Below, piece after piece: positions 25,465 through 41,152 of a stretch of DNA of 50,930 nucleotides (position 1 is its first letter; each line of letters begins with the position of its first letter). Location: positions 1 to 50,930 of the forward strand of contig JAGFND010000002.1 of assembly GCA_021409285.1 (NCBI GenBank). Direction: 5' to 3'. This stretch comes from Candidatus Methanoperedens sp. GTDB lineage: Archaea; Halobacteriota; Methanosarcinia; Methanosarcinales; Methanoperedenaceae. The notes beneath the pieces are model-generated. The model was not told the origin of the DNA. It did no database searches and worked only from the letters and a program-made list of their open reading frames with translations. The translations under genes were made by a program, and so were the position numbers.

Positions 25465-25511
25465 GAACCACAAACACTTAGGATCATCTTTACGTTCGGA
25501 GGTAATTGATT

Positions 25512-27155
25512 ATGGCAGGACAATTAAATGGACAGCCTATTATTATATTGGATAAAGAAAAAACAAGGACCCAGGGAAGAGAAGCCCTTGGATACAATAT
25601 CACAGCCGCAAAGGCAATAGCAGATGCAGTCAGAACAACACTTGGTCCGAAAGGCATGGACAAGATGCTCGTGAACACCGTTGGAGACATGGTGATCACA
25701 AATGACGGCGCAACGATTCTGCGGGAAATGGATATAAAACATCCTGCTGCAAAGATGATGGTTGAGGTCGCACGCACGCAGGAAGACAAAGCAGGTGACG
25801 GAACTACAACCGCTGTCGTCCTGGCCGGAGAACTCCTGAACAAAGCTCGCATTCTTATTGAACGGGATGTCCATCCCACGACAATAACGAGAGGCTACAG
25901 TCTTGCCCAGGTGAGAGCGCTTGAGGTTCTTGAAGGACTTTCGATTGATGTTACTGACGATGTTCTCGAAAATATAGCCAGGACAGCCCTCACAGGAAAG
26001 AGCGCAGACCTTGCACTGGAACCCCTCGTCCAGCTCTGTGTGAATGTGGCACAGTCAATAAAAGAGAGCGGTAAAGTGAATTTTAAGGAGAATATAAATA
26101 TCCTGCATCAGCGCGGCGGAAGCATAAAAGACACAAAGTTCGTGAACGGGCTTGTAATAGACAGGGCAAGGGCGCATAAGAATATGCCAAAGAAAGTGGA
26201 GAACGCCAGGATTGCCATCCTTGATACGGGAATTGAAGTTGAGAAAACGAAAACAGCTTCAAAGATTCATATATCTTCGCCTGAGATGCTCAAAGAAGCA
26301 AGGCTTGAAGAGGGCAAACTTGTAGAGGAGAGAGTGGAAGCACTTCTTAAAAGTGGAGCAAACGTCATTTTTACAGAGAAGGGTATAGACGATATCGGAA
26401 TGCATTATCTGAATAAGAAAGGTATCTTTGCAGTGAGAAGATGCAAGGATGAGGAGATCAAGAAACTCGTGAAAGCCACGGGGGCTCGCGTCGTATCCAA
26501 GCTCGATGGTGTAACTGAGAATGACCTTGGCAGCGCAGATATAGTCGAAGAGCGCGGCGTTGGCAACTACAGGATGACCTACGTTGAAGGCTGCAAGAAC
26601 CCGAAGGCAGTTTCCATTCTTATTTACAGCGGCGCAGAGCATGTCACAGAAGAGATCGAGCGGGCACTTGATGACGCCCTGCGCGTTGTCGGTGATGTAA
26701 TAGAGGATAAGAAAATCGTGGCCGGAGGCGGATCTCCAGAAATTGAAGTTGCCATGAAGCTCAGGAGTTATGCCACTGCATTAAAAGGAAGAGAACAGCT
26801 TGCTGTGATGGCATATGCTGATGCGCTTGAAGAAATTCCAAAAAGCATTGCTGAGAATGCGGGTCTTGAGGCTATAGATATAATAGCGGATCTGAGGAAC
26901 CAGCATGCAAAAGGAAAGAGAACCTCAGGTCTTAACGTATTCACAGGTAAAGCCGAAGATATGTTAAAGTTAGGTATCATTGAGCCGCTTCGCGTAAAGA
27001 CTCAGGAGATCAAATCAGCGACAGATGCAGCCAATATGATCCTCAGGATCGATGATATAATAACGGCAAAAGAAACAGGCATGATGGATGTCAAACCTGA
27101 GCACACTGCGAGTTATTATGATGGAATTCAGGCTCCGGATGTAGGGGACGATTAG
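25512..27155 (+). CDS. thsA: Thermosome subunit (group II chaperonin)
   Basis: ATP-driven folding chamber of archaea. The frame opens at a TTG at 25506, but ATG at 25512 is preferred because GGAGGT lies 8 nt upstream of it; that gives 547 residues. ATP-binding motifs are [10 protein letters not shown] near 40, TNDGATIL near 64 and GDGTTTAVV near 93, with [12 protein letters not shown] near 400. The C terminus ends in acidic DVGDD rather than a Gly/Met-rich tail. Methanosarcinales often have several thermosome paralogues, so this may be one of a set. Confidence 0.97.
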
Positions 27156-27281
27156 ATTTAAAAAGAAATAAATAGAAAGACACAACATATTAATTAAACA
27201 AGTTGAATAACGGTTATAGGAGTTAGCAGGTCATGTTATCTGATGATTTAATTTTTTGATGTATAACGGAGTTGTCTGATA

Positions 27282-27860
27282 TTGAATCGTAACAAAGAAG
27301 AAGAAGAAATAAAGGAAACTGAGGAGAAAATGCCCGGTCAGGAAGAGCCAATACCAGAGATCCCAAAAGAAATTGACGAACTTGAAAAAACAAAAAAACA
27401 ACTTGAAGACGAAAAAAATAGGTGTCTTCGTCTTTCTGCGGAATTCGACAATATGAGAAAAAGGACACAGAAAGAAAAAGAAGAATTCATCAAATATGCG
27501 AATGAAAAGCTCATTTTAGAGTTGATAGATGTATGGGAAAGTCTCGAGCGAGGGATCGAGAATGCAAAAAAGACAGACGATATAGATACATTGGTAAAAG
27601 GTATGGAGCTCATATATAAGCAGTTCAAGACCGTACTTGAGAAAAATGGTCTTGTCCCGATCAAAGCTCAGGGTGAAAAATTCGATCACTATAAACATGA
27701 AGCTATGATCCAAACGGTCACAGATGAATGTGAAGAGGATATGATTCTGGAAGAGTTTGCAAGAGGTTATATGTTAAATAATAAGGTCATTCGTTATTCA
27801 AAAGTGAGAGTATCGAAAAAGAAAGAACAGAAAGAAGAAAAAGGAAATGAGGTGAATTAA
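27282..27860 (+). CDS. grpE: GrpE, nucleotide-exchange factor of DnaK
   Basis: 192 residues. A charged coiled coil (about 25-85, [29 protein letters not shown]) is followed by the C-terminal beta domain with [17 protein letters not shown] and [18 protein letters not shown]. The start is taken as TTG at 27282, with GGAG about 10 nt upstream; ATG at 27330 is the alternative and would remove only acidic leader residues. Its stop overlaps the dnaK start by one base (TAATG). Archaeal grpE-dnaK-dnaJ was acquired from bacteria, per established literature. Confidence 0.93.
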
Positions 27861-29719
27861 TGGCTAAAATAATAGGAATAGATCTGGGTACAAGCAATTC
27901 GGCGGCAGCAGTGATGCAGGGGAATAGACCTGTAATCATACCAAGCGCTGAAGGAATATCACTTGGGGGGAAAGCATTTCCCTCATATGTGGCATTTACG
28001 AAAGACGGACAGAGATTAACGGGTGAGCCTGCAAGAAGGCAGGCTGTGACAAACACAGAAGGAACAGCTTACGCTTTCAAGAGAAAGATGGGCACAGACT
28101 ATAAGTACAATCTTCGAGGTAAAGATTACAGGCCTCAGGAGCTTTCTGCATTTTTGCTGCAGAAGATAAAGCAAGATGCTGAAGCATTTCTTGGCGATAA
28201 AGTAGAAAAAGCGGTAATTACAGTTCCGGCTTATTTCAATGATAACCAGAGGCAAGCGACAAAGGATGCAGGAGAGATCGCAGGGCTTGAAGTTGTAAGG
28301 ATTATTAATGAGCCAACGGCAGCATCGCTTGCCTATGGTCTTGATAAGACCGGCGACCAGAAGATACTCGTATTTGACCTTGGCGGAGGCACCCTGGATG
28401 TTACGATCATGGAGATGGGTGGCGGCGTCTTTGAGGTTAAATCCACAGCAGGCGACACGCAGCTTGGCGGTACCGATATGGACAATAAGCTTGTGGATTA
28501 CATTGCCGATGAGTTCAAGAAAGAACACGGCATCGACCTGCGCAAAGACAGGGTGGCGAACCAGAGATTGCGCGATGCTGCTGAGAAAGCGAAGATCGAA
28601 TTATCCACGACCATGACCACAGAGATCAACCAGCCATTTATCACTGCAGATGCAGGGGGTCCAAAACATCTCACTATGACATTGACACGGTCAAAGCTTG
28701 AGGAAGTGATAAGACCGGTCATAGATAGATGCCATGCGCCGATGGAACAGGCATTATCTGACGGGAAATTGACAAAGAATGAAATTAATAAGATCATTCT
28801 TGTGGGCGGGCCTACAAGGATGCCGATAGTCCAGAAATATGTTGAGGATTATTTCGGGAAAAAGGTAGAAGGCGGGGTTGACCCGATGGAATGCGTTGCA
28901 ATGGGCGCAGCGATCCAGGCAGGTGTTCTTACCGGAGAAGTCAAGGATATTCTGCTTCTTGATGTCACTCCGCTCACTCTCGGTATCGAGACACTTGGTC
29001 ATGTAATGACAAAACTGATCGACAGGAATACCACGATCCCGACACGTAAGAGCCAGATATTCTCAACTGCTGCTGATACCCAGACAACGGTTGAGATCCA
29101 TGTGCTTCAGGGAGAAAGGGCGATGTCGTACGATAACGTGACGCTGGGCAGGTTCAACCTCGTGGGCATACCGCCGGCACCTCGCGGAATTCCGCAGATC
29201 GAGGTCACTTTCGATATCGATGCGAACGGCATCCTTCATGTGACAGCAAAAGACATGGGAACTGGCAAAGAGCAAAAGATGACAATAACCGCACCTCTTA
29301 AGATGGCATCTGATGAAATAGACCGGAAGATCAAGGATGCAGAGAAATTCGCTGATGAAGATAAACAGCGTAAGGAAAAGGTCGAACTCCAGAACCAGGC
29401 TGATACCCTGATATACACAACAGAGAAGACACTTAAGGAGCTTGGCGATAAAGTCACAAGCGATCAGAAAACAAAGGTCGAAAAGGCTGTCGAGAATGTA
29501 AAAGAGGCATTAAAGAGTGATGATGCAGGAAGGATTAAATCTGCAATCGAAGACCTCACAAAGGAAATGCATGCGATAAGCACAATACTTTATCAGCAGC
29601 AACAGTCTCAGCAGGGTCAGCAGGGTCAGCAGGCTGGAGCAGAGCAGACAACAGATGAAAAGAAAGAAGAAAAAGTGACAGACGCGGAATATAAGGTCGT
29701 GGATGAGGATAAGAAATAA
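27860..29719 (+). CDS. dnaK: Hsp70 chaperone DnaK
   Basis: 619 residues. The ATPase domain carries [27 protein letters not shown] and [13 protein letters not shown]. The substrate domain follows ([18 protein letters not shown]), then a helical lid. The C terminus has a Gln/Gly-rich stretch, [13 protein letters not shown], formed by a short direct repeat, before a charged end. It is the bacterial type, without the insert of eukaryotic forms, and is translated with grpE. A strong terminator follows, so dnaJ has its own promoter. Confidence 0.97.
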
Positions 29720-29732
29720 TATCTTCAAATCG

Positions 29733-29769
29733 GGGTATTTTTTGAATACCCTTTCTGTTTTTTTTTGTT
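29733..29769 (+). terminator. dnaK terminator
   Basis: GGGTATT (29733-29739) and AATACCC (29745-29751) form a 7-bp stem with a 5-base loop, followed by TTTCTG and a long T-run to about 29766. It lies 13 bp after the dnaK stop and isolates dnaJ. Confidence 0.8.
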
Positions 29770-29814
29770 GAACCAATATAATTAACGTCCATCGAGTTAT
29801 ATTAATAACAATTT

Positions 29815-30939
29815 ATGGCCACTAAACGCGACTATTACGAGATACTCGGCGTGGACAAGAAAGCGCCAGTGGATGAGATAAAAACAGCTTATCGCAAATT
29901 AGCAATGCAATACCATCCCGATAAGAATAAATCGCCCGATGCCGAGGAGAAATTCAAGGAGATCTCGGAAGCTTATGCTGTCCTTTCGGATCAGAATAAG
30001 CGTCAGCAGTATGATCAGTTCGGGCATTCGGGCATAGACATGAGGTATTCGCAGGAGGATATTTTCAGGGGTGTTGACTTTGAGGATATACTGAAGGATT
30101 TTGGCAGAGGGGGTTCCGGTAGAGGTGGCGGAATATTTGATATTTTCTTTGGCGGGGAAAGGAGAGGAGGACCAAGGCGCGGCTCAGATATACTTTATGA
30201 GCTTTCTATTGATCTGGGAGATGCAGCAGCGGGGAAAAAAATTGAATTGGAAGTCCCAAGGACAGAGAACTGTGATGTATGTCATGGAAGTGGAGCAAGA
30301 CCGGGGACATCCCCTAAAGCATGTTCCACATGCCGCGGCACGGGTCAAGTGAACAGGACACAGAACACGCCTTTTGGAAGGTTCATGACAACATCTACAT
30401 GCAGCACATGCCGAGGAAGCGGACAGATAATCGATTCACCATGCACCACCTGCCACGGCACAGGTACAGTCCAGAAACGACGCAAACTGGAAGTAAAGAT
30501 TCCGGCAGGTGTTGATACCGGTTCAAGGCTCAGAGTACCCGGAGAAGGTGAAGCCGGGGAAAAAGGCGGACCAACAGGAGACCTCTATGTTGAAATAAAT
30601 GTCAGGCTTCATAAAGATTTTATAAGGGAGGAAAACAATCTTATCATGGAAGCAGCGATCAGCTTTACGCAGGCTGCTCTTGGAGATGAGATCCTTGTGC
30701 CGACACTTGATGGAAAAGCTAAGATGAAAATACCGGCAGGTACCCAGAATGGCCATGTATTCAGGCTCAAAGGAAAAGGAATAACAAGCCTTCATTATTC
30801 TGGCAAAGGCGACCAGCTTGTGAGGATCAAAATTGATGTTCCCACAAAACTTACAGATAGGCAGAAAAAACTCCTGCAGGAATTTGCAGAGATAAGTGGC
30901 GAGAAACCAAGAAGCAAAGGATTTTTTGGATTGGCCTGA
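29815..30939 (+). CDS. dnaJ: Hsp40 co-chaperone DnaJ
   Basis: 374 residues, full type I DnaJ. The J domain has HPD at about 33-35, then a Gly-rich linker ([10 protein letters not shown]). The zinc domain has four CxxCxGxG repeats ([32 protein letters not shown]), and two C-terminal beta domains follow. It stimulates the ATPase of the adjacent DnaK. It is transcribed separately from dnaK. An inverted-repeat-free AT-rich gap of 45 bp after the terminator is its likely promoter. Its zinc repeats parallel the stand-alone protein at 15433. Confidence 0.97.
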
Positions 30940-30973: not shown

Positions 30974-31627
30974 TTACTTCCCAAATCTCCTCTTTCTTTT
31001 CTGGTAATCCCTTATAGCCCTCAAGAAATCTACTTTCCGGAAATCCAGCCAGTTGACATCTGTAAAATAAAGTTCGGAATAGACAGATTGCCAGATGAGA
31101 AAATCCGTCAATCTCTTGCCGCCTGCTCTAATTACAAGATCAGGTTCACATTTGAACAATAAATGAGATTCTATCGTTTTTTCATCAATATCCTCAGGAT
31201 CCATGTTACCATTCTCGATCTTTTTCATGATCTCTTTTATCGCCCTTGTTAATTCATATTTGCCGCTGTAGCCAAGTGAAATCTCCAGCCTCATTCCCTC
31301 GGTCCCAATACTTCGTATTTCTTTATCAAGTCTAGTGATCACACTGATATTATGAGTTATGCTGGCAAGTACAGGCGGTATTTCAGTTGACAGCTTGCTG
31401 CAAATCTTTCTGCTGAGTTCGGCATCCACTTCGATTATGCCAACATAAATAGTCACATTGTTGATTTCAGTCTCTTTACACCATGAGACAAAGGATATGA
31501 GTTTGCCATATTTCTCATCAGCAAGAAGATCGCTTTCCGAAAGAGCAAGGACAATATGTTCTGGAACATCCTGTGTCTTTATTTTATTTTTAAGCCTCCA
31601 TTCATAAAGTCCAGATATTATTCCCAT
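30974..31627 (-). CDS. Cis-prenyltransferase homologue lacking the catalytic aspartate (NgBR/UppS-like)
   Basis: 217 residues, shorter than typical UppS. The C-terminal half is canonical: PDLVIRAGGKRLTDFLIWQSVYSELYF and DFLRAIRDYQKRKRRFG, including the RxG and the E-x-YF segment. At the N terminus, where active enzymes have DGNxRW, it reads PEHIVLALSESDLLADEKYGK: the catalytic Asp and the phosphate-binding Asn-Gly-Arg are missing. This is the pattern of the non-catalytic partner (NgBR/Nus1 type) of heteromeric enzymes. Heteromeric cis-prenyltransferases are reported in Methanosarcina mazei. A catalytic partner is not in this window. It is divergent from the polyprenol-kinase-like gene. Confidence 0.82.
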   Translation of the reverse strand: MGIISGLYEWRLKNKIKTQDVPEHIVLALSESDLLADEKYGKLISFVSWCKETEINNVTIYVGIIEVDAELSRKICSKLSTEIPPVLASITHNISVITRLDKEIRSIGTEGMRLEISLGYSGKYELTRAIKEIMKKIENGNMDPEDIDEKTIESHLLFKCEPDLVIRAGGKRLTDFLIWQSVYSELYFTDVNWLDFRKVDFLRAIRDYQKRKRRFGK

Positions 31628-31686
31628 GTTCTTCTATTTGGAGGCAAGGATAAAGTATTTGCCTGTTAGCATTGATTCTACATAAA

Positions 31687-33066
31687 ATGAAGCTGATGCA
31701 GGAGTATAAGACACAGAGCATCTATATTTTTCTTGGATTGATTGCACTTCTCTTTCCATTCTTTAAACCTGTCTATTTCTTACTTGCCTTCATTGTATTT
31801 GCGTTTGTTTTTTCAAGATTCAAATCGGGCTCAAGTGTTTTTTCTCTTCTTGCAAGGGAATCTGATATCATAGCAGGAAATCTTATCTCTTTGACCCAGT
31901 TATTGCTTATTATGGCATTCCTTTTCTTCATTGGCATAATACTAAATTTCGATAAATTTCCCCTTTTTATAATAGGCGGGGCTTTTACGATCACAACATT
32001 GGGGGATGGTTTGGCTGACATGATAAATATCTATGATAAGGCAAAAAAGGAGAAATTGCATGACAATATTAAGATATATTCAGCAAAATCAAGTATTGTT
32101 TTTTTAATATCAGGAAGCATTTTTGCATTCCTATTTTGTGTCTGGATATATTACTTTACGCTTGAGGCACCTTATGGGATCCCTTATGGAATGCTCTTTT
32201 TCCTCGCTGTGCTTGGAGCCCTTACTGGCGCACTTCTTGAATCCATAACGAAAAATGAAGATAATATTATTATTCCCTTCGGATCAGCAATGACAATGTG
32301 GCTATTTTATAATTTCAGGTATAGTTATGATGTGGATACTTTGTACCTTATTAAGGTGCTAATTTTTGCGTTTATTCTTGGTTATCTTTCTTACAGGGCG
32401 CGTATCGCTGATATTTCAGCCATGCTTAGTGCTACATTGATTGGCGTCATAATAATCATATCAAGCGACATCAGTTCATTTTTCGTTCTTTTGACTTTCT
32501 TTTTGCTGGGGAGTCTTTTTACACGCTACAAATACAGTTATAAACTTGCTCATGGCACAGCCGAGAAAAAAGGAGGAGTAAGGGGATACAAGAATGTTTT
32601 CAGCAATTCACTGGCCGCTCTTGCAATAGCGGTGGCGATTGGCATTTTCCCAACACACAGGCTGCTGCTCTTGTCTGCATTTCTTGGTTCAATCGCCACG
32701 GCATGCGGCGACACACTGGCAAGTGAGATTGGTGAGACCTACAGCAAAGAACCGCGGATGATCACAACATTTCAGAAAGTAAAACCAGGGACTGATGGGG
32801 GTATATCACCTCTTGGGGAATTTGCCGCTTTTTTCGGTGCAAATGCGATCGCATTTATGGCATTTATATTAATTCCAGACATACGGAATAATGCATATAT
32901 CCTGCTCATTGTTATTGCAGGAGGATTCATTGGCACGAACATTGATAGTGTACTCGGCGCGACATTCCAGCAGAAAGGTTATCTTACAAATAATGGCGTC
33001 AATCTTCTGGCTACCATTTCTGGAGCGATCGTTTCAGGAGTATTATATCATCTGATGGGTTCGTAG
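31687..33066 (+). CDS. Membrane protein: dolichol-kinase-like domain fused to DUF92 (VTE6-like)
   Basis: About 459 residues from ATG at 31687 (the frame opens at a TTG at 31672), with roughly 12 hydrophobic segments. The first half has the polyprenol-kinase/CDP-DAG-synthase pattern: TTLGDGLADMIN, then KSSIVFL, then GALLESITKNEDNIIIPFGSA, like the GD...K and E..DN blocks of dolichol kinase. The second half is DUF92: MLSATLIGVIII, HGTAEKKGGVRGYKNVFSNS and ACGDTLASEIGE. DUF92 members include VTE6 phytyl-phosphate kinase. It could phosphorylate polyprenol and polyprenyl phosphate in salvage; that is inference. It is divergent from the cis-prenyltransferase-like gene. Confidence 0.75.
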   Translation: MKLMQEYKTQSIYIFLGLIALLFPFFKPVYFLLAFIVFAFVFSRFKSGSSVFSLLARESDIIAGNLISLTQLLLIMAFLFFIGIILNFDKFPLFIIGGAFTITTLGDGLADMINIYDKAKKEKLHDNIKIYSAKSSIVFLISGSIFAFLFCVWIYYFTLEAPYGIPYGMLFFLAVLGALTGALLESITKNEDNIIIPFGSAMTMWLFYNFRYSYDVDTLYLIKVLIFAFILGYLSYRARIADISAMLSATLIGVIIIISSDISSFFVLLTFFLLGSLFTRYKYSYKLAHGTAEKKGGVRGYKNVFSNSLAALAIAVAIGIFPTHRLLLLSAFLGSIATACGDTLASEIGETYSKEPRMITTFQKVKPGTDGGISPLGEFAAFFGANAIAFMAFILIPDIRNNAYILLIVIAGGFIGTNIDSVLGATFQQKGYLTNNGVNLLATISGAIVSGVLYHLMGS

Positions 33067-34883: not shown

Positions 34884-35555
34884 TTATAAAGAATGGCTGC
34901 GGTGTCTCAAATATTCGATCACACCTGGCATTATTGAGATGATTATGATAACGAAGATAAACAGGGTAAAGTTCTGTTTGACAAATAGAAGATTGCCAAA
35001 AAAATATCCTGCGCAAATAAAGACTGATATCCAGGCGATCCCTCCGACGATATTATAAGTAGCAAAACGCCAGTAACTCATACTCCCGACACCTGCAAGA
35101 AAGGGAGCGTATGTCCTGATTATGGGAACAAATCTCGCTATGATTAAGGCTTTTCCGCCATATTTTTCATAGAACCTGTGGGTACGTTCCATGTATTCCT
35201 TTTTCACAAAAAAGACACTTTTTCTATTGAATCTTTTTCCGAGATAATTCCCGATCCAGTAGTTCATTGAATCACCTGCCACAGCAGCAATGCCAAGGAG
35301 TCCCAATAACCACCATATCTCCAGTGCACCGGCAGCCGCAAAAGCACCCACGACAAAAAGAAGTGAATCTCCGGGAAAAAATGGCGTCACTACAAGACCC
35401 GTTTCACAAAAAATTATGAGGAAAAGGATCAAATAAGTCCAGGGTCCATAATCCTGGATGACCAGTTTTAGATTATCATCAAGATGAACAAAGAATTGAA
35501 TGAAATATGTTAGCATTTCCATAATACCGCCAGGGATGCGAAGTACAAGATGCAT
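34884..35555 (-). CDS. DedA-family membrane protein
   Basis: 223 residues with several membrane segments. The family signature is intact: ETGLVVTPFFPGDSLLFVVGA near residues 50-70 and FVPIIRTYAPFLAGVGSMSYWRF near 140-163, with re-entrant loops containing the conserved Arg and Pro residues. DedA proteins are linked to flipping of carrier lipids such as undecaprenyl phosphate in bacteria, which would suit the polyprenyl genes 2 kb away, though they are not in the same operon. The small Cys-rich gene starts 172 bp upstream on the same strand and ends 10 bp before it, so the two are probably co-transcribed. Confidence 0.93.
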   Translation of the reverse strand: MHLVLRIPGGIMEMLTYFIQFFVHLDDNLKLVIQDYGPWTYLILFLIIFCETGLVVTPFFPGDSLLFVVGAFAAAGALEIWWLLGLLGIAAVAGDSMNYWIGNYLGKRFNRKSVFFVKKEYMERTHRFYEKYGGKALIIARFVPIIRTYAPFLAGVGSMSYWRFATYNIVGGIAWISVFICAGYFFGNLLFVKQNFTLFIFVIIIISIMPGVIEYLRHRSHSL

Positions 35556-36046: not shown

Positions 36047-36946
36047 ATGACAACGATCTGCTCAGCCCCCGGAAAAATATACCTCTTCGGCGAACATGCC
36101 GTGGTATATGGCGAACCTGCCATCGCATGCGCAGTGGAGCTGCGTACACGTGTATCTGTAAGTAGATCAAGTTCAATATTGATATCATCTGACCTTGGCG
36201 TGACTGGACTTGATCACGAAATTCACCCTTACATTTCATCAGCCATCGAGAAACTGGGATCACCAGATGTTTCTGTGGAAATTAGTTCTGACATACCGGT
36301 GGGTTCAGGGCTTGGCTCCTCAGCAGCGGCCACTGTCGCAACACTTTCTGCTATCAATATTGAATTCATGCTGGGGCATTCTAAAGAAGAACTCGCAGGG
36401 ATAGCCCATGAGATCGAAAAAATAGAGCAGGGAGCTGCAAGTCCGACAGATACTTTTGTATCAACGTTCGGCGGGGGGGTGGAGATCCCAACCCGTAAAC
36501 ATCTGAGTCTCCCTGATTGCGGTGTAGTCATCGGGAACACAAAAAAAGGGGCGTCTCCTAAAAAGACAGCAAAACTTGTGAAACAGGTCGCACAATTAAG
36601 AGAAGAGTACCCGGAAGTGATAGATCCGATAATCAAAACGATCGGTTCATTTGCCAGAAAAGGCGAGACACTCATATTAAAAAAAGATCATATTTCTATA
36701 GGTAAACTCATGAACGTGAATCACGGACTGCTTGATGCTATCGGAGTTAGCACATTGGAATTATCCACGCTTGTCTATGCAGCAAGAACCGCAGGCGCAT
36801 ATGGAGCAAAGATCACAGGTGCAGGGGGTGGCGGATGTATGGTGGCGATCACGGACTTGCAGGAAGAAGTCTCAGAAGCCATAGAAAAAGCCGGAGGGCA
36901 GGCAATAATAACCCGATTCACTTCAAACGGGGTGATGAGGGAATGA
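36047..36946 (+). CDS. mvk: Mevalonate kinase
   Basis: It phosphorylates mevalonate, feeding isoprenoid ether-lipid synthesis. 299 residues. GHMP-kinase motifs: SAPGKIYLFGEHAVVYG at the N terminus, the ATP loop PVGSGLGSSAAATV near residue 84, and KITGAGGGGCMVAI near the C terminus. It is the first gene of a tight operon and overlaps the next gene by ATGA. The mevalonate-phosphate steps missing here must be encoded elsewhere. Confidence 0.96.
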   Translation: MTTICSAPGKIYLFGEHAVVYGEPAIACAVELRTRVSVSRSSSILISSDLGVTGLDHEIHPYISSAIEKLGSPDVSVEISSDIPVGSGLGSSAAATVATLSAINIEFMLGHSKEELAGIAHEIEKIEQGAASPTDTFVSTFGGGVEIPTRKHLSLPDCGVVIGNTKKGASPKKTAKLVKQVAQLREEYPEVIDPIIKTIGSFARKGETLILKKDHISIGKLMNVNHGLLDAIGVSTLELSTLVYAARTAGAYGAKITGAGGGGCMVAITDLQEEVSEAIEKAGGQAIITRFTSNGVMRE

Positions 36947-37707
36947 ATCTTGTGATCCTGAAAATTGGCGGGAGTGTAATAACCGAGAAAGGCTCTGTGT
37001 CATCTGCAAAAAAACCTGAAATAGAACGTATATCACATGAGATAGCTTCATTCAAGAAGGAGGCTGATCTTGATCTTATTCTTGTGCACGGTGCCGGTTC
37101 GTTTGGACATCCCCAGGCGATAAATTGGGTAAAAGAAGGATTTGACGCAAAAGGTGTGTACCTCATACATAGTTCTGTGAATATATTGAATTCTATGGTT
37201 CTTGATTCCCTGAATAATGCCGGAGTAAATGCGCTGCCAGTACATCCATTAAGCGGAAGTCTCCTTGAGGATGGAAGGCTTATCGAACTTCAGGTCGAGA
37301 AAATAAAGCTGATGCTGGAAAGAGGCATTGTCCCTGTCCTTCATGGCGATGTGGTCATGGATAGGAAACGCGGCGCTGCGATACTTTCAGGTGATAGGAT
37401 AGTCCCGTACCTTGCTTCAGTCATGAACGCTTCACAAATAGGAGCAGGCACCGATGTTGACGGTGTCCTGGATGAAAAAGGGACGGTCATAAAAAAAATA
37501 ACTCCTATGAGTTTCATAGATATGAAAAAAAGCATCCAGGGTTCAGGAACGACTGATGTGACGGGCGGAATGCTGGGAAAAGTCTCGGAATTCCTTGAGC
37601 TTGCAAAAAAAGGGATAAGTTCCAGGATATTCAATGCATCAAAGAAAGATATGGTGTCAAAATTCTTATATGGCGAAGATGTAGGGACACTGATAACAGA
37701 CAAATGA
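36943..37707 (+). CDS. ipk: Isopentenyl phosphate kinase
   Basis: It phosphorylates isopentenyl phosphate to isopentenyl diphosphate in the archaeal variant of the mevalonate pathway. The frame is open earlier, but ATG at 36943 overlaps the mvk stop (ATGA) and gives the family N terminus MNLVILKIGGSVIT; 255 residues. The amino-acid-kinase fold motifs HGAGSFGH (with the catalytic His), GAGTDVDGV and TDVTGGMLGK are present. Next gene 33 bp downstream. Confidence 0.96.
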   Translation: MNLVILKIGGSVITEKGSVSSAKKPEIERISHEIASFKKEADLDLILVHGAGSFGHPQAINWVKEGFDAKGVYLIHSSVNILNSMVLDSLNNAGVNALPVHPLSGSLLEDGRLIELQVEKIKLMLERGIVPVLHGDVVMDRKRGAAILSGDRIVPYLASVMNASQIGAGTDVDGVLDEKGTVIKKITPMSFIDMKKSIQGSGTTDVTGGMLGKVSEFLELAKKGISSRIFNASKKDMVSKFLYGEDVGTLITDK

Positions 37708-37740
37708 GTTATATATCCATGATTAAATTATAGGTACTGA

Positions 37741-38859
37741 ATGACAACATCGGACAGAAAGATCGAACATTTATTATTATGCGTTGAAAAAGACGTTGAA
37801 GCCCACAGGACATATTTTGGACAAAGAGCCAGCGGATTTGATGACGTGGATCTTGTTCATGATTGTCTTCCGGAGATCAATAAGAAATCTCTGGAACTTG
37901 AATTGGAGTTCATGGGAAAGAAATTGCGAGCGCCCATATTGATCGCTTCAATGACAGGCGGGCATCCGGATACAAAAGCCGTAAATACCGCACTCTCGTG
38001 TGCGGCAGAAGAGCTTGGAATAGGTATCGGAGTGGGCAGCCAGAGGGCAGCAATCGAAGATCCGAGCATGGAGGATTCATTCAGGATCGTAAGAGACAAA
38101 GCGCCGAATGCTTTCATTTATGGAAATGTTGGAGCAGCTCAGCTAAATGAGTTCGGTATCGACGGGCTTGAGCGCGCTGTTGAAATGATCGGAGCAGATG
38201 CAATGGCCATACATCTTAATTTTCTTCAGGAAGCGATACAGCCTGAGGGAAATGTGAATGCAACAGGATGCCTGGAAGCGATCAAGAAAGTATGTACTGA
38301 ACTCTCTGTGCCGGTGATCGTAAAAGAGACTGGAGCTGGCATCTCTCATTCCCAGGCGGTTGCTATTTGTGATGCTGGGGCCGCAGCTATTGACATTGGA
38401 GGGCTTGGTGGTACAAGTTGGGCCGGAGTTGAAACATTTCGTGCTCAAAAGCGAGGAGATATGCTATCCGACCATCTTGGCAGGCAGTTCTGGAACTGGG
38501 GAATACCTACGACAGTAAGCATCGTAGAGTCAACCATCTCTATCCCCGTGATCGCCACAGGCGGGATAAGATCGGGAATTGATGTCGCAAAGTCGATTGC
38601 ACTTGGAGCATCTGTGTGTGGAGTCGCCCTCCCTCTTGTTGCGCCTGCTTTAAAAGGAGAGAAGGATGTTGTAGATAAACTGATCCTTATTATCGAAGAG
38701 CTCAAAGTTGCGATGTTTCTTACAGGATGCAGGACGATCGAAGAACTTGGAAGCGCTCCCGTTGTTGTTTCCAGTAAAACCAGGGAATTCCTGGAGCAGC
38801 GCGGTTTTGATACAGGGAGATTTGCACGAAAAAAAAAAATAATGGAGAGATCTAATTGA
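37741..38859 (+). CDS. fni: Type 2 isopentenyl-diphosphate isomerase
   Basis: An FMN- and NADPH-dependent enzyme that interconverts IPP and DMAPP. 372 residues, TIM barrel. Conserved blocks are PILIASMTGG near 60, the GVGSQRAAIED loop, AIHLNFLQEAIQPEGN, VKETGAGIS and ATGGIRSGIDVAKSIALGAS. Its stop overlaps the RNase J start (TTGA). It is unrelated to the bacterial type 1 isomerase. Confidence 0.97.
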   Translation: MTTSDRKIEHLLLCVEKDVEAHRTYFGQRASGFDDVDLVHDCLPEINKKSLELELEFMGKKLRAPILIASMTGGHPDTKAVNTALSCAAEELGIGIGVGSQRAAIEDPSMEDSFRIVRDKAPNAFIYGNVGAAQLNEFGIDGLERAVEMIGADAMAIHLNFLQEAIQPEGNVNATGCLEAIKKVCTELSVPVIVKETGAGISHSQAVAICDAGAAAIDIGGLGGTSWAGVETFRAQKRGDMLSDHLGRQFWNWGIPTTVSIVESTISIPVIATGGIRSGIDVAKSIALGASVCGVALPLVAPALKGEKDVVDKLILIIEELKVAMFLTGCRTIEELGSAPVVVSSKTREFLEQRGFDTGRFARKKKIMERSN

Positions 38860-40193
38860 CAGAAATAGGAATTATAGCAGTCGGCGGATACAATGAAATG
38901 GGTAAGAACATGACAGGTGTCCGAATAGGTAATGATATCATTGTACTTGACATGGGACTGCAACTGGATAGAGTCCAGATACATGAGGATGTTGAAATAG
39001 ATAAAATGCATTCACTTGATCTTATCAAGATGGGAGCGATCCCGGATGATACTGTTATGAAGGAAGTGGGAGGAACAGTAAAAGCTATCGTTTGCACCCA
39101 TGGTCATCTTGACCATATCGGAGCGATCCCAAAATTGGCACACAGGTACAAAGCGCCGATAATCGCAACGCCTTATACCGCCGAACTTGTAAAGCATGAG
39201 ATATCAGATGAGCGGAAATTCAAGGTAAATAATGAAGTCATTTCACTGAAGATCGGAGGAAGGTATGAAGTGACCCCTGATGTACAGGTGGAATTCATCC
39301 GTATACAACATAGCATAGTGGATTCAGCATTTGCGGCCATACATACACCCGAAGGTACGATCCTGTATGCCAGTGATTTTAAGCTTGATAGAACCCCAAC
39401 AATAGGGCTGCCGCCTGACTTCCAGAGGCTGCGTAAACTCGGGAAAGAAGGAGTGAGGGTTATGATCACAGAGAGCACGAATTCCGGGCAATCCGGAAAA
39501 ACGCCATCCGAGCAGATAGCAAAAGATCTTGTGCGCGATGTGCTTCTGGGTACAGAAGAAACTGAATCTGGCGTTTTGATAACGACTTTCTCATCCCATG
39601 TGGCGCGCATTAACGCAATAATCCAGGCTGCAGAAGAGATGGATCGGATACCGGTACTTCTTGGAAGGTCTATGGAACGCTATCTTTCGATAGCTCAGAA
39701 GATGAATTATATCAAATTCCCAAAGAATCTTGAGGTTCATGGCAGCCGTAACGCTGTTGAAAAAGCACTGAAACGTATCATACAGGATGGGAAGAAAAAA
39801 TATCTCCCCATAATTACAGGCCATCAGGGTGAACCTGATTCTATACTAACAAGGATCGCGAACGGAGAAACCCAGTTCAAGATCGAGTCAGGGGATAAGG
39901 TCATATTTTCTGCAAATGCGATCCCTAATCCGATGACACTCGCCAACAGATATGCACTTGAGACAAAACTTAAGATGTCAGGAGCACGCATCTATGATAA
40001 TGTACATGTATCAGGTCATGCATCCACTGAAGATCACTGGGAACTCCTGAGAATGATAAATCCAGAGCAGGTCATTCCATCGCATGGGAATATGGTGATG
40101 CATTCAAACTATGTCGGACTTGCTGAAGAGGCAGGATATGTTTTTGGAGATACTGTGCATATTATGAGAAATGGTGAGGAAATGCTTCTATGA
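38856..40193 (+). CDS. rnj: Ribonuclease J-type nuclease (aRNase J)
   Basis: A metallo-beta-lactamase/beta-CASP nuclease for 5'-end processing and 5'-3' decay of RNA. 445 residues from a TTG start that overlaps the fni stop. The metal motif is THGHLDHIGA, with later metal/CASP blocks ASDFKLD, SGHASTEDHWELL and PSHGN. It sits inside the isoprenoid operon, an arrangement conserved in many euryarchaea. Coupling of lipid synthesis and RNA decay is a positional inference only. Confidence 0.94.
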   Translation: MTEIGIIAVGGYNEMGKNMTGVRIGNDIIVLDMGLQLDRVQIHEDVEIDKMHSLDLIKMGAIPDDTVMKEVGGTVKAIVCTHGHLDHIGAIPKLAHRYKAPIIATPYTAELVKHEISDERKFKVNNEVISLKIGGRYEVTPDVQVEFIRIQHSIVDSAFAAIHTPEGTILYASDFKLDRTPTIGLPPDFQRLRKLGKEGVRVMITESTNSGQSGKTPSEQIAKDLVRDVLLGTEETESGVLITTFSSHVARINAIIQAAEEMDRIPVLLGRSMERYLSIAQKMNYIKFPKNLEVHGSRNAVEKALKRIIQDGKKKYLPIITGHQGEPDSILTRIANGETQFKIESGDKVIFSANAIPNPMTLANRYALETKLKMSGARIYDNVHVSGHASTEDHWELLRMINPEQVIPSHGNMVMHSNYVGLAEEAGYVFGDTVHIMRNGEEMLL

Positions 40194-41152
40194 TCGAGGA
40201 GAACCTCGCAAAAAGAGCTAAACTTGTGGATGAGGCCATCCCCAAATTCCTCCCGATAACGCCGCCGGATGAGCTTTATCATGCAATGCGCCACCTGCTT
40301 GACGCAGGAGGGAAAAGGCTGCGCCCAACGGCGCTTTTGCTTGCTGCGGAAGCCGTGGGCGGGAAACCTGAAAACCTGATGCCTGCGGCTCTGGCTGTTG
40401 AATTCGTGCATAACTTCACCTTGATCCATGATGATATTATGGATGAAGCTGATCTAAGGCGCGGTCTTCCTACAGTTCATAAGAAATGGGGGGCATCAAA
40501 AGCGATCATTTCTGGAGATGCTCTTTTTTCAAAAGCGTTCGAGATCTTATCCTGCGCGAAAAGCGAACCCTCACAGATAGTTGAAAGTATTGAACTCCTG
40601 TCCAAAACAAGCACGGATATCTGTGAAGGCCAGTGGATGGATATGAATTTTGCGACAAGGAAAGATGTTACCGAAGAAGAATATATGCGGATGGTCGAGA
40701 AAAAGACCGCTGTTCTTTTTGCGGCAGCGGTCAAAATAGGAGCGATCTTGTCCGGTGCGAACCGTGACATTTCACGGGCATTATGGGATTTTGGCCGGCT
40801 CACAGGCGTAGGATTCCAGATATATGATGACGTGATCGATCTAATCACTCCCGAGGAGATCCTGGGAAAAGCACAGGGCGGAGATATAATCGAAGGAAAA
40901 AGGACGCTTATTGTTATTCATTCATTCTCAAAAGGCGTCACGATCGAGGCGCTTGGAAAAAGCAATGCAACAAGAAGTGAAGTGTCGACAGCTCTCACAA
41001 AACTTAAGGAATCAGGCTCTATCAATTATGCAATGAACAAAGCATTAAATTTTGTTGAAGAAGGAAAAAACGCACTGAGAGTACTTCCTGATTCTGAAGC
41101 AAAGATGATACTCATCGGACTTGCTGATTATATGATAGAGAGAAAATATTAA
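40190..41152 (+). CDS. idsA: Geranylgeranyl diphosphate synthase (short-chain trans-prenyltransferase)
   Basis: It condenses DMAPP with IPP units to C15/C20 diphosphates for archaeal lipids. 320 residues. The first aspartate-rich motif HDDIMDEADLRRG is near residue 80 and the second, YDDVIDLI, near 210, with GGKRLRP near 40. It starts inside the rnj stop (ATGA). The C20 product is usual for archaea; chain length cannot be fixed by eye. Confidence 0.95.
   Translation: MIEENLAKRAKLVDEAIPKFLPITPPDELYHAMRHLLDAGGKRLRPTALLLAAEAVGGKPENLMPAALAVEFVHNFTLIHDDIMDEADLRRGLPTVHKKWGASKAIISGDALFSKAFEILSCAKSEPSQIVESIELLSKTSTDICEGQWMDMNFATRKDVTEEEYMRMVEKKTAVLFAAAVKIGAILSGANRDISRALWDFGRLTGVGFQIYDDVIDLITPEEILGKAQGGDIIEGKRTLIVIHSFSKGVTIEALGKSNATRSEVSTALTKLKESGSINYAMNKALNFVEEGKNALRVLPDSEAKMILIGLADYMIERKY

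Follow-up and report, generated by a model that had tools for sequence, protein, structure and literature searches.

In a 50,930-nucleotide stretch of a Candidatus Methanoperedens sp. genome (contig JAGFND010000002.1; hereafter the window), we found a gene for a 459-residue protein in which a decayed dolichol-kinase-like N-terminal half (N-half) is joined to a seemingly intact DUF92 C-terminal half (C-half). It lies head-to-head with a gene for an NgBR-like cis-prenyltransferase subunit, and the same genome carries a separate, intact dolichol-kinase-like gene. Our best explanation, which as a whole we hold with slightly better than even confidence, is that this two-domain DUF92 protein (arCOG02245/COG1836) serves as an enzyme of an archaeal carrier-lipid pathway. 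Catalysis would reside in the DUF92 half, most likely as a CTP-dependent kinase activity that converts an isoprenyl monophosphate, such as geranylgeranyl phosphate, to the diphosphate, and this diphosphate would serve as the allylic primer elongated by the neighbouring heteromeric cis-prenyltransferase. The N-half, of dolichol-kinase-type descent with most active-site-type residues gone, would probably provide a scaffold, a lipid-binding surface or a pairing surface.

The fusion gene and its head-to-head neighbour

The open reading frame contains no internal stop codon, and a TTG codon at 31672 is a possible alternative start. The features of the locus are listed below, with their basis in brackets.

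31687..33066, + strand: two-domain DUF92 protein, 459 aa (open reading frame, profile matches)
31687..32352, + strand: N-half, residues 1-222, degenerate dolichol-kinase-like (Sec59/COG0170-type) domain (hhalign, profile match, motif counts)
32002..32007, + strand: GD motif of the N-half, G106-D107 (26/26 in the genus; D in 29/75 overall)
32239..32265, + strand: E..DN motif of the N-half, E185 to D192-N193 (genus conservation, alignment with the stand-alone family)
32365..33027, + strand: DUF92 (VTE6-like, COG1836) domain of the C-half, residues 227-447 (profile matches)
32707..32727, + strand: GDTLASE of the C-half, residues 341-347 (D342, T343 and E347 invariant, 75/75)
32944..32949, + strand: D420-S421 of the C-half (invariant, 75/75)
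31628..31686, no strand: 59 bp separating the two divergent start codons (ORF coordinates)
30974..31627, - strand: NgBR/NUS1-like non-catalytic cis-prenyltransferase subunit, without DGNRR and with a C-terminal RxG (profile, motif, NUS1 alignment)

The C-half was identified by PF01940 (223 bits over residues 227-447; cut-off 27.5) and TIGR00297 (231.5 bits; cut-off 205.9). Direct sequence searches with the N-half gave no match in Pfam, NCBIfam or the PDB, and PF01148 did not match it at E up to 1, nor genome-wide at E up to 10. When profiles were compared, N-halves from 47 order-level orthologues matched 30 stand-alone dolichol-kinase-like proteins with an hhalign probability of 99.3% and a score of 134; as a control, N-halves scored at most 25 against reversed decoy alignments. 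A profile of 23 stand-alone homologues (profile A1) picked up the window N-half in a genome search (31915-32307, E 1.4e-6) and also reached the solved CDP-DAG synthase CdsA (4q2g, E 1.6e-4; 4q2e, E 4.5e-4). On these profile comparisons, the N-half belongs by homology to the dolichol-kinase family. A weak relation to that family was also seen for the C-half (hhalign 56%, score 36.7, with no decoy above 16.5). Origin of the protein by tandem duplication of a single domain was considered and rejected, the two halves scoring 20-24 against each other (below 5%, hhalign) with no recognisable match, and the top score between them (27.6, 12.8%) coming from both profiles reversed. Structure prediction based on the window protein and locus L003 gave a poor model (pLDDT 46.5).

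Residues 10-217 of the 217 encoded at 30974-31627 align with human NUS1/NgBR (9r08_B, residues 16-222, E 1.9e-6), and the catalytic enzymes ranked above the NUS1 chains align with the second half of the product only. By alignment and motif content, it is an NgBR/NUS1-like, non-catalytic cis-prenyltransferase subunit. A catalytic cis-prenyltransferase with DGNRR, without RxG and with a full PF01255 match is encoded on a different contig of the same genome (G000:C1). This combination of an RxG non-catalytic subunit and a DGNRR catalytic subunit is also that of human DHDDS/NUS1 and of MM_0618/MM_1083, the heteromeric cis-prenyltransferase known from Methanosarcina mazei (Emi et al. 2019, as cited in PMC8131916). 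What differs in the genome studied here is that each subunit gene has its own contig and that the gene for the non-catalytic subunit is paired with the DUF92 gene. The 59-bp gap may act as a shared regulatory region for the two divergent genes.

We compared 39 DUF92 loci, comprising 32 two-domain loci from 27 families and seven single-domain loci from two families. An NgBR-like gene lies head-to-head at 19 of the 32 two-domain loci (16/27 families) and at none of the seven single-domain loci (0/2 families), a difference that at the family level is by itself not significant. DGNRR is missing from the products of all 19 head-to-head genes; 18 of these products terminate in RxG, and that of L087 in KFG. 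At nine of the 19 loci, a catalytic subunit is encoded 0.6 to 3.5 kb beyond (within 4 kb). No prenyltransferase is found nearby in 11 of the 27 two-domain families (f3, f5, f8, f12, f16, f19, f20, f25, f26, f27 and f32), nor at the single-domain loci (L067, L068, L073, L074, L098, L099 and L100; families f10 and f15).

Several other genes in the window were noted. At 34884-35555 (- strand), 1.8 kb downstream of the fusion, a DedA/VTT-family protein is encoded (NCBIfam DedA, 252 bits, above the cut-off) that weakly resembles the undecaprenyl-phosphate transporter UptA; no such gene was found beside DUF92 at the 38 other loci examined. An isoprenoid run at 36047-41152 (+ strand) comprises mevalonate kinase, isopentenyl phosphate kinase, type 2 IPP isomerase, an RNase J-like protein and a polyprenyl synthetase. 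On the other side, a thermosome subunit gene followed by GrpE-, DnaK- and DnaJ-like genes (these three named by eye) occupies 25506-30939 (+ strand) and reaches the NgBR-like gene; sequence searches found none of these genes in the other neighbourhoods, except the thermosome gene in single-domain loci L067 and L100. Elsewhere in the genome, L106:1309-1920 encodes a Pyr4-like transmembrane terpene cyclase-family protein (PF25129, 103 bits), a family unexpected in an archaeal genome bin, and adjoins a nucleotidyl transferase-like gene.

The architecture and its uppS context have been known since 2015. In its available part, PMC5898192 relates arCOG02245/COG1836/PF01940 to PF01148, describes an N-terminal Sec59-like domain in some members (for example Mbar_A3310 of Methanosarcina barkeri, HHpred 99.85%), gives uppS as the single conserved neighbour and considers a kinase step in isoprenoid biosynthesis likely. 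The window locus likewise combines a Sec59-like N-domain, a DUF92 domain and a uppS-type neighbour; that text, as far as available, names the neighbour uppS without an NgBR-like label, whereas the partner here is NgBR-like. A preliminary description of this DNA had proposed the fusion, the nature of both halves, a divergent NgBR-like partner and a link to polyprenyl carrier synthesis, and our analysis bears these out; the N-half does have a profile match to the kinase/CDP-DAG synthase family, on which that description had made its reading depend. The gene neighbourhood to which it pointed recurs in part, in the 16 families but not in the 11 given above. Its view that a pathway of this kind had not been described does not stand, as regards architecture and gene context, beside the 2015 report. 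New here are the decay of the N-half, the recognition of the partner as NgBR-like and the conservation of its head-to-head placement; we found no report of the decay or of an NgBR-like head-to-head partner in the open-licence literature.

Decay of the N-half and invariance of the DUF92 polar core

Conservation was assessed over 75 two-domain rows, in which identical or contained copies had been merged. Left out of these rows were eight single-domain proteins, L031, which has an in-frame stop, and L032, which is truncated at a contig end. The stand-alone dolichol-kinase-like family has the near-invariant motifs RKxxH, GD, GxxxG, K..EG and E..DN, and N-halves were scored for 13 near-invariant residues in a merged alignment whose ends and K..EG region are uncertain. 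Stand-alone homologues keep a mean of 12.2 of the 13 (n=30, range 9-13). For N-halves the means are 5.0 over the 26 rows of the genus of the window, 2.5 over the two rows of the other genus of its family, 4.05 over 20 rows from other families of its order and 2.6 over 27 rows from elsewhere in the phylum. The window protein (P0001) keeps five, and the maximum for any N-half is six. The GD aspartate is lost in 46 of the 75 rows, and well-supported branches of the tree force at least four changes in its presence. The available text of PMC5898192 reports two presumed catalytic aspartates as conserved in the M. barkeri N-domain, whereas across our 75 orthologues they mostly are not. The GD site reads GN in genus g18 (rows L051 and L059), which we took to be Methanosarcina because a protein closely related to M. 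mazei MM_0014 occurs in its genome G178.

The DUF92 half presents a different picture. K286, R299, N303, N307, D342, T343, E347, T360, D420, S421, N435 and N439 form a polar core that is invariant in all 75 rows, as are several glycines, and this core is still invariant in an alignment that includes single-domain members (A2). Sequence identity is lower in the N-half than in the C-half for 325 of 325 pairs within the genus (mean 0.61 vs 0.77) and for 2768 of 2775 pairs overall (0.32 vs 0.55).

Homology and the GD and E..DN motifs kept in the genus link the N-half to dolichol kinase and the phytol kinase VTE5 (COG0170, PF01148). Unlike these, the window N-half lacks RKxxH, GxxxG and EG, all three of which are also lost across the genus, and it lies below PF01148 detection in Pfam. 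K134 is a lysine in 23 of the 26 genus members, but it aligns with the family's glutamate and not its lysine, making its identity as the motif lysine doubtful in this alignment; a register shift could restore it as such, but would restore neither RKxxH nor EG. Within the genus, all 26 proteins retain D107, E185 and D192, and 25 retain N193. Only five of 31 charged N-half positions are invariant there (R57, D60, D107, E185 and D192), and all five align with conserved positions of the stand-alone dolichol kinases, R57 and D60 having been noticed post hoc; the chance of D107, E185 and D192 all falling among five invariant positions of 31 is 0.002. Because of this correspondence, the N-half of the genus does not appear to be simply drifting, and it could still bind metal, nucleotide or lipid. 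Complete conservation of D107, E185 and D192 exceeds what a pure scaffold needs and counts against a scaffold-only role. Overall, the degenerate N-half probably acts as a scaffold, and in the genus of the window it may keep a residual role.

These results separate the two options that the preliminary description had offered for the N-half. The GD and E..DN residues it named are present in the window protein, and its lysine is the doubtful one. Two active kinases in one protein are disfavoured, and the alternative that one half is structural fits better, since no N-half of the 75 exceeds six of the 13 residues.

Distribution and the separate dolichol-kinase-like gene

Of 196 genomes sampled from the phylum, 193 gave a DUF92 match, among them all 164 of good quality, as did 56 of 60 near relatives. 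Most matches lie in frames of at least 380 residues and represent two-domain proteins; single-domain DUF92 proteins of about 250-296 residues occur in two of the families examined (f10 and f15). In a tree of DUF92 halves, a moderately supported branch (82/92) has all 75 two-domain rows on the same side. A scan of genome contigs with the protein alone recovered one single-domain relative, and 30 pattern matches on viral contigs included no relatives.

The genome that carries the fusion also encodes, at L105:1402-2028, a stand-alone protein in which every motif is complete (RKVIH, GDGFAG, NKSWEG and YDN); it scores 23.6 bits against PF01148, just below the cut-off of 24. Profile A1 matched 80 of 100 phylum genomes; the fused N-half is the sole match in four (G073, G091, G098 and G136), and the remaining 76 have a stand-alone gene. 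Among 84 good-quality genomes, 67 have the stand-alone gene and 17 have DUF92 without a detected one. Those 17 stay unexplained by our best explanation if the substrate monophosphate derives from a prenol kinase. The idea that the N-half replaces a missing stand-alone kinase was rejected, as the four family rows concerned keep 4 (L045), 0 (L070), 3 (L078) and 2 (L083) of the 13 residues.

Proposed function and alternatives

We know of no demonstrated activity for an archaeal DUF92 protein, and plant VTE6 presumably lacks a dolichol-kinase-like N-domain. By analogy, the DUF92 half is best supported as a putative isoprenyl-phosphate kinase with VTE6 as its relative: AtVTE6, a COG1836 protein, is a phytyl-phosphate kinase according to the available text of PMC9782597. 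The two have the DUF92 catalytic domain family in common, which cannot take the place of activity in the present protein. In archaea, kinase activities on geranylgeraniol and geranylgeranyl phosphate were reported by Ohnuma et al. 1996, as cited in PMC9385802. Our control search found the organism of those activities to be without DUF92; PF01940 had no match in S. acidocaldarius (one of 14 controls), and DUF92 is unlikely to lie behind the Sulfolobus kinase activities.

A different division of labour, in which both halves are active and a (poly)prenol is phosphorylated twice, from alcohol to mono- to diphosphate, seems to us quite unlikely. The N-half is a true dolichol-kinase homologue by hhalign and profile A1, its only invariant charged positions in the genus are the five described above (a post hoc observation), and the M. 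barkeri aspartates are called conserved in the available part of PMC5898192. Set against this are the loss of RKxxH, GxxxG and EG in the genus and of GD in most rows, the Methanosarcina-like g18 included, as well as the complete separate homologue in the same genome. In families without a detected stand-alone gene, moreover, the N-half is no better preserved.

The remaining alternatives concern what the DUF92 half acts on, and in which direction. It might work on long-chain polyprenyl (di)phosphate, mainly by polyprenyl-PP + CDP -> polyprenyl-P + CTP, and so fill the step from the prenyltransferase to the glycosyl carrier; we know of no enzyme of this superfamily that works in this CDP-dependent dephosphorylating direction, and consider the proposal rather improbable. 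It would accord with the head-to-head prenyltransferase subunit, with the near-universal presence of DUF92 and with the distribution of UppP (PF02673), which is absent from the genome of the window and present in only 28 of 100 genomes. The available text of PMC5088576 calls the end of archaeal Dol-P synthesis uncharacterised, and that of PMC3223725 reports a DUF92-family gene as essential in Synechocystis, which is unexpected for pure salvage; the known DUF92 member, however, is described as a kinase (PMC9782597, available part). Very unlikely, in our estimate, is a broader version in which the fusion is the enzyme still unassigned in archaeal carrier-lipid synthesis and sets the balance between the polyprenyl diphosphate produced by the heteromeric prenyltransferase and the monophosphate carrier, with the N-half, whose acidic triad D107, E185 and D192 stays fixed in this genus, as a lipid- or metal-binding regulatory module and the enzyme possibly a CDP-dependent dephosphorylase. 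Recycling, with the DUF92 half phosphorylating long-chain polyprenyl or dolichyl phosphate and the N-half binding the long chain, is also unlikely, even though both the prenyltransferase context and the descent of the N-half from a dolichol-handling family are in keeping with it. Its product would have no evident use, because polyprenyl diphosphate has, to our knowledge, no acceptor role in glycosyl or glycosyl-phosphate transfer.

Because DUF92 occurs in nearly all genomes of the phylum and has a head-to-head NgBR-like partner in most of the two-domain families compared, its gene is a direct candidate for the last steps of archaeal dolichyl-phosphate synthesis, discussed in the available text of PMC5088576. 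Given the degeneracy of the N-half, the DUF92 half would be expected to act on monophosphates and the separate dolichol-kinase-like gene product on alcohols, rather than both steps being carried out by one bifunctional enzyme.
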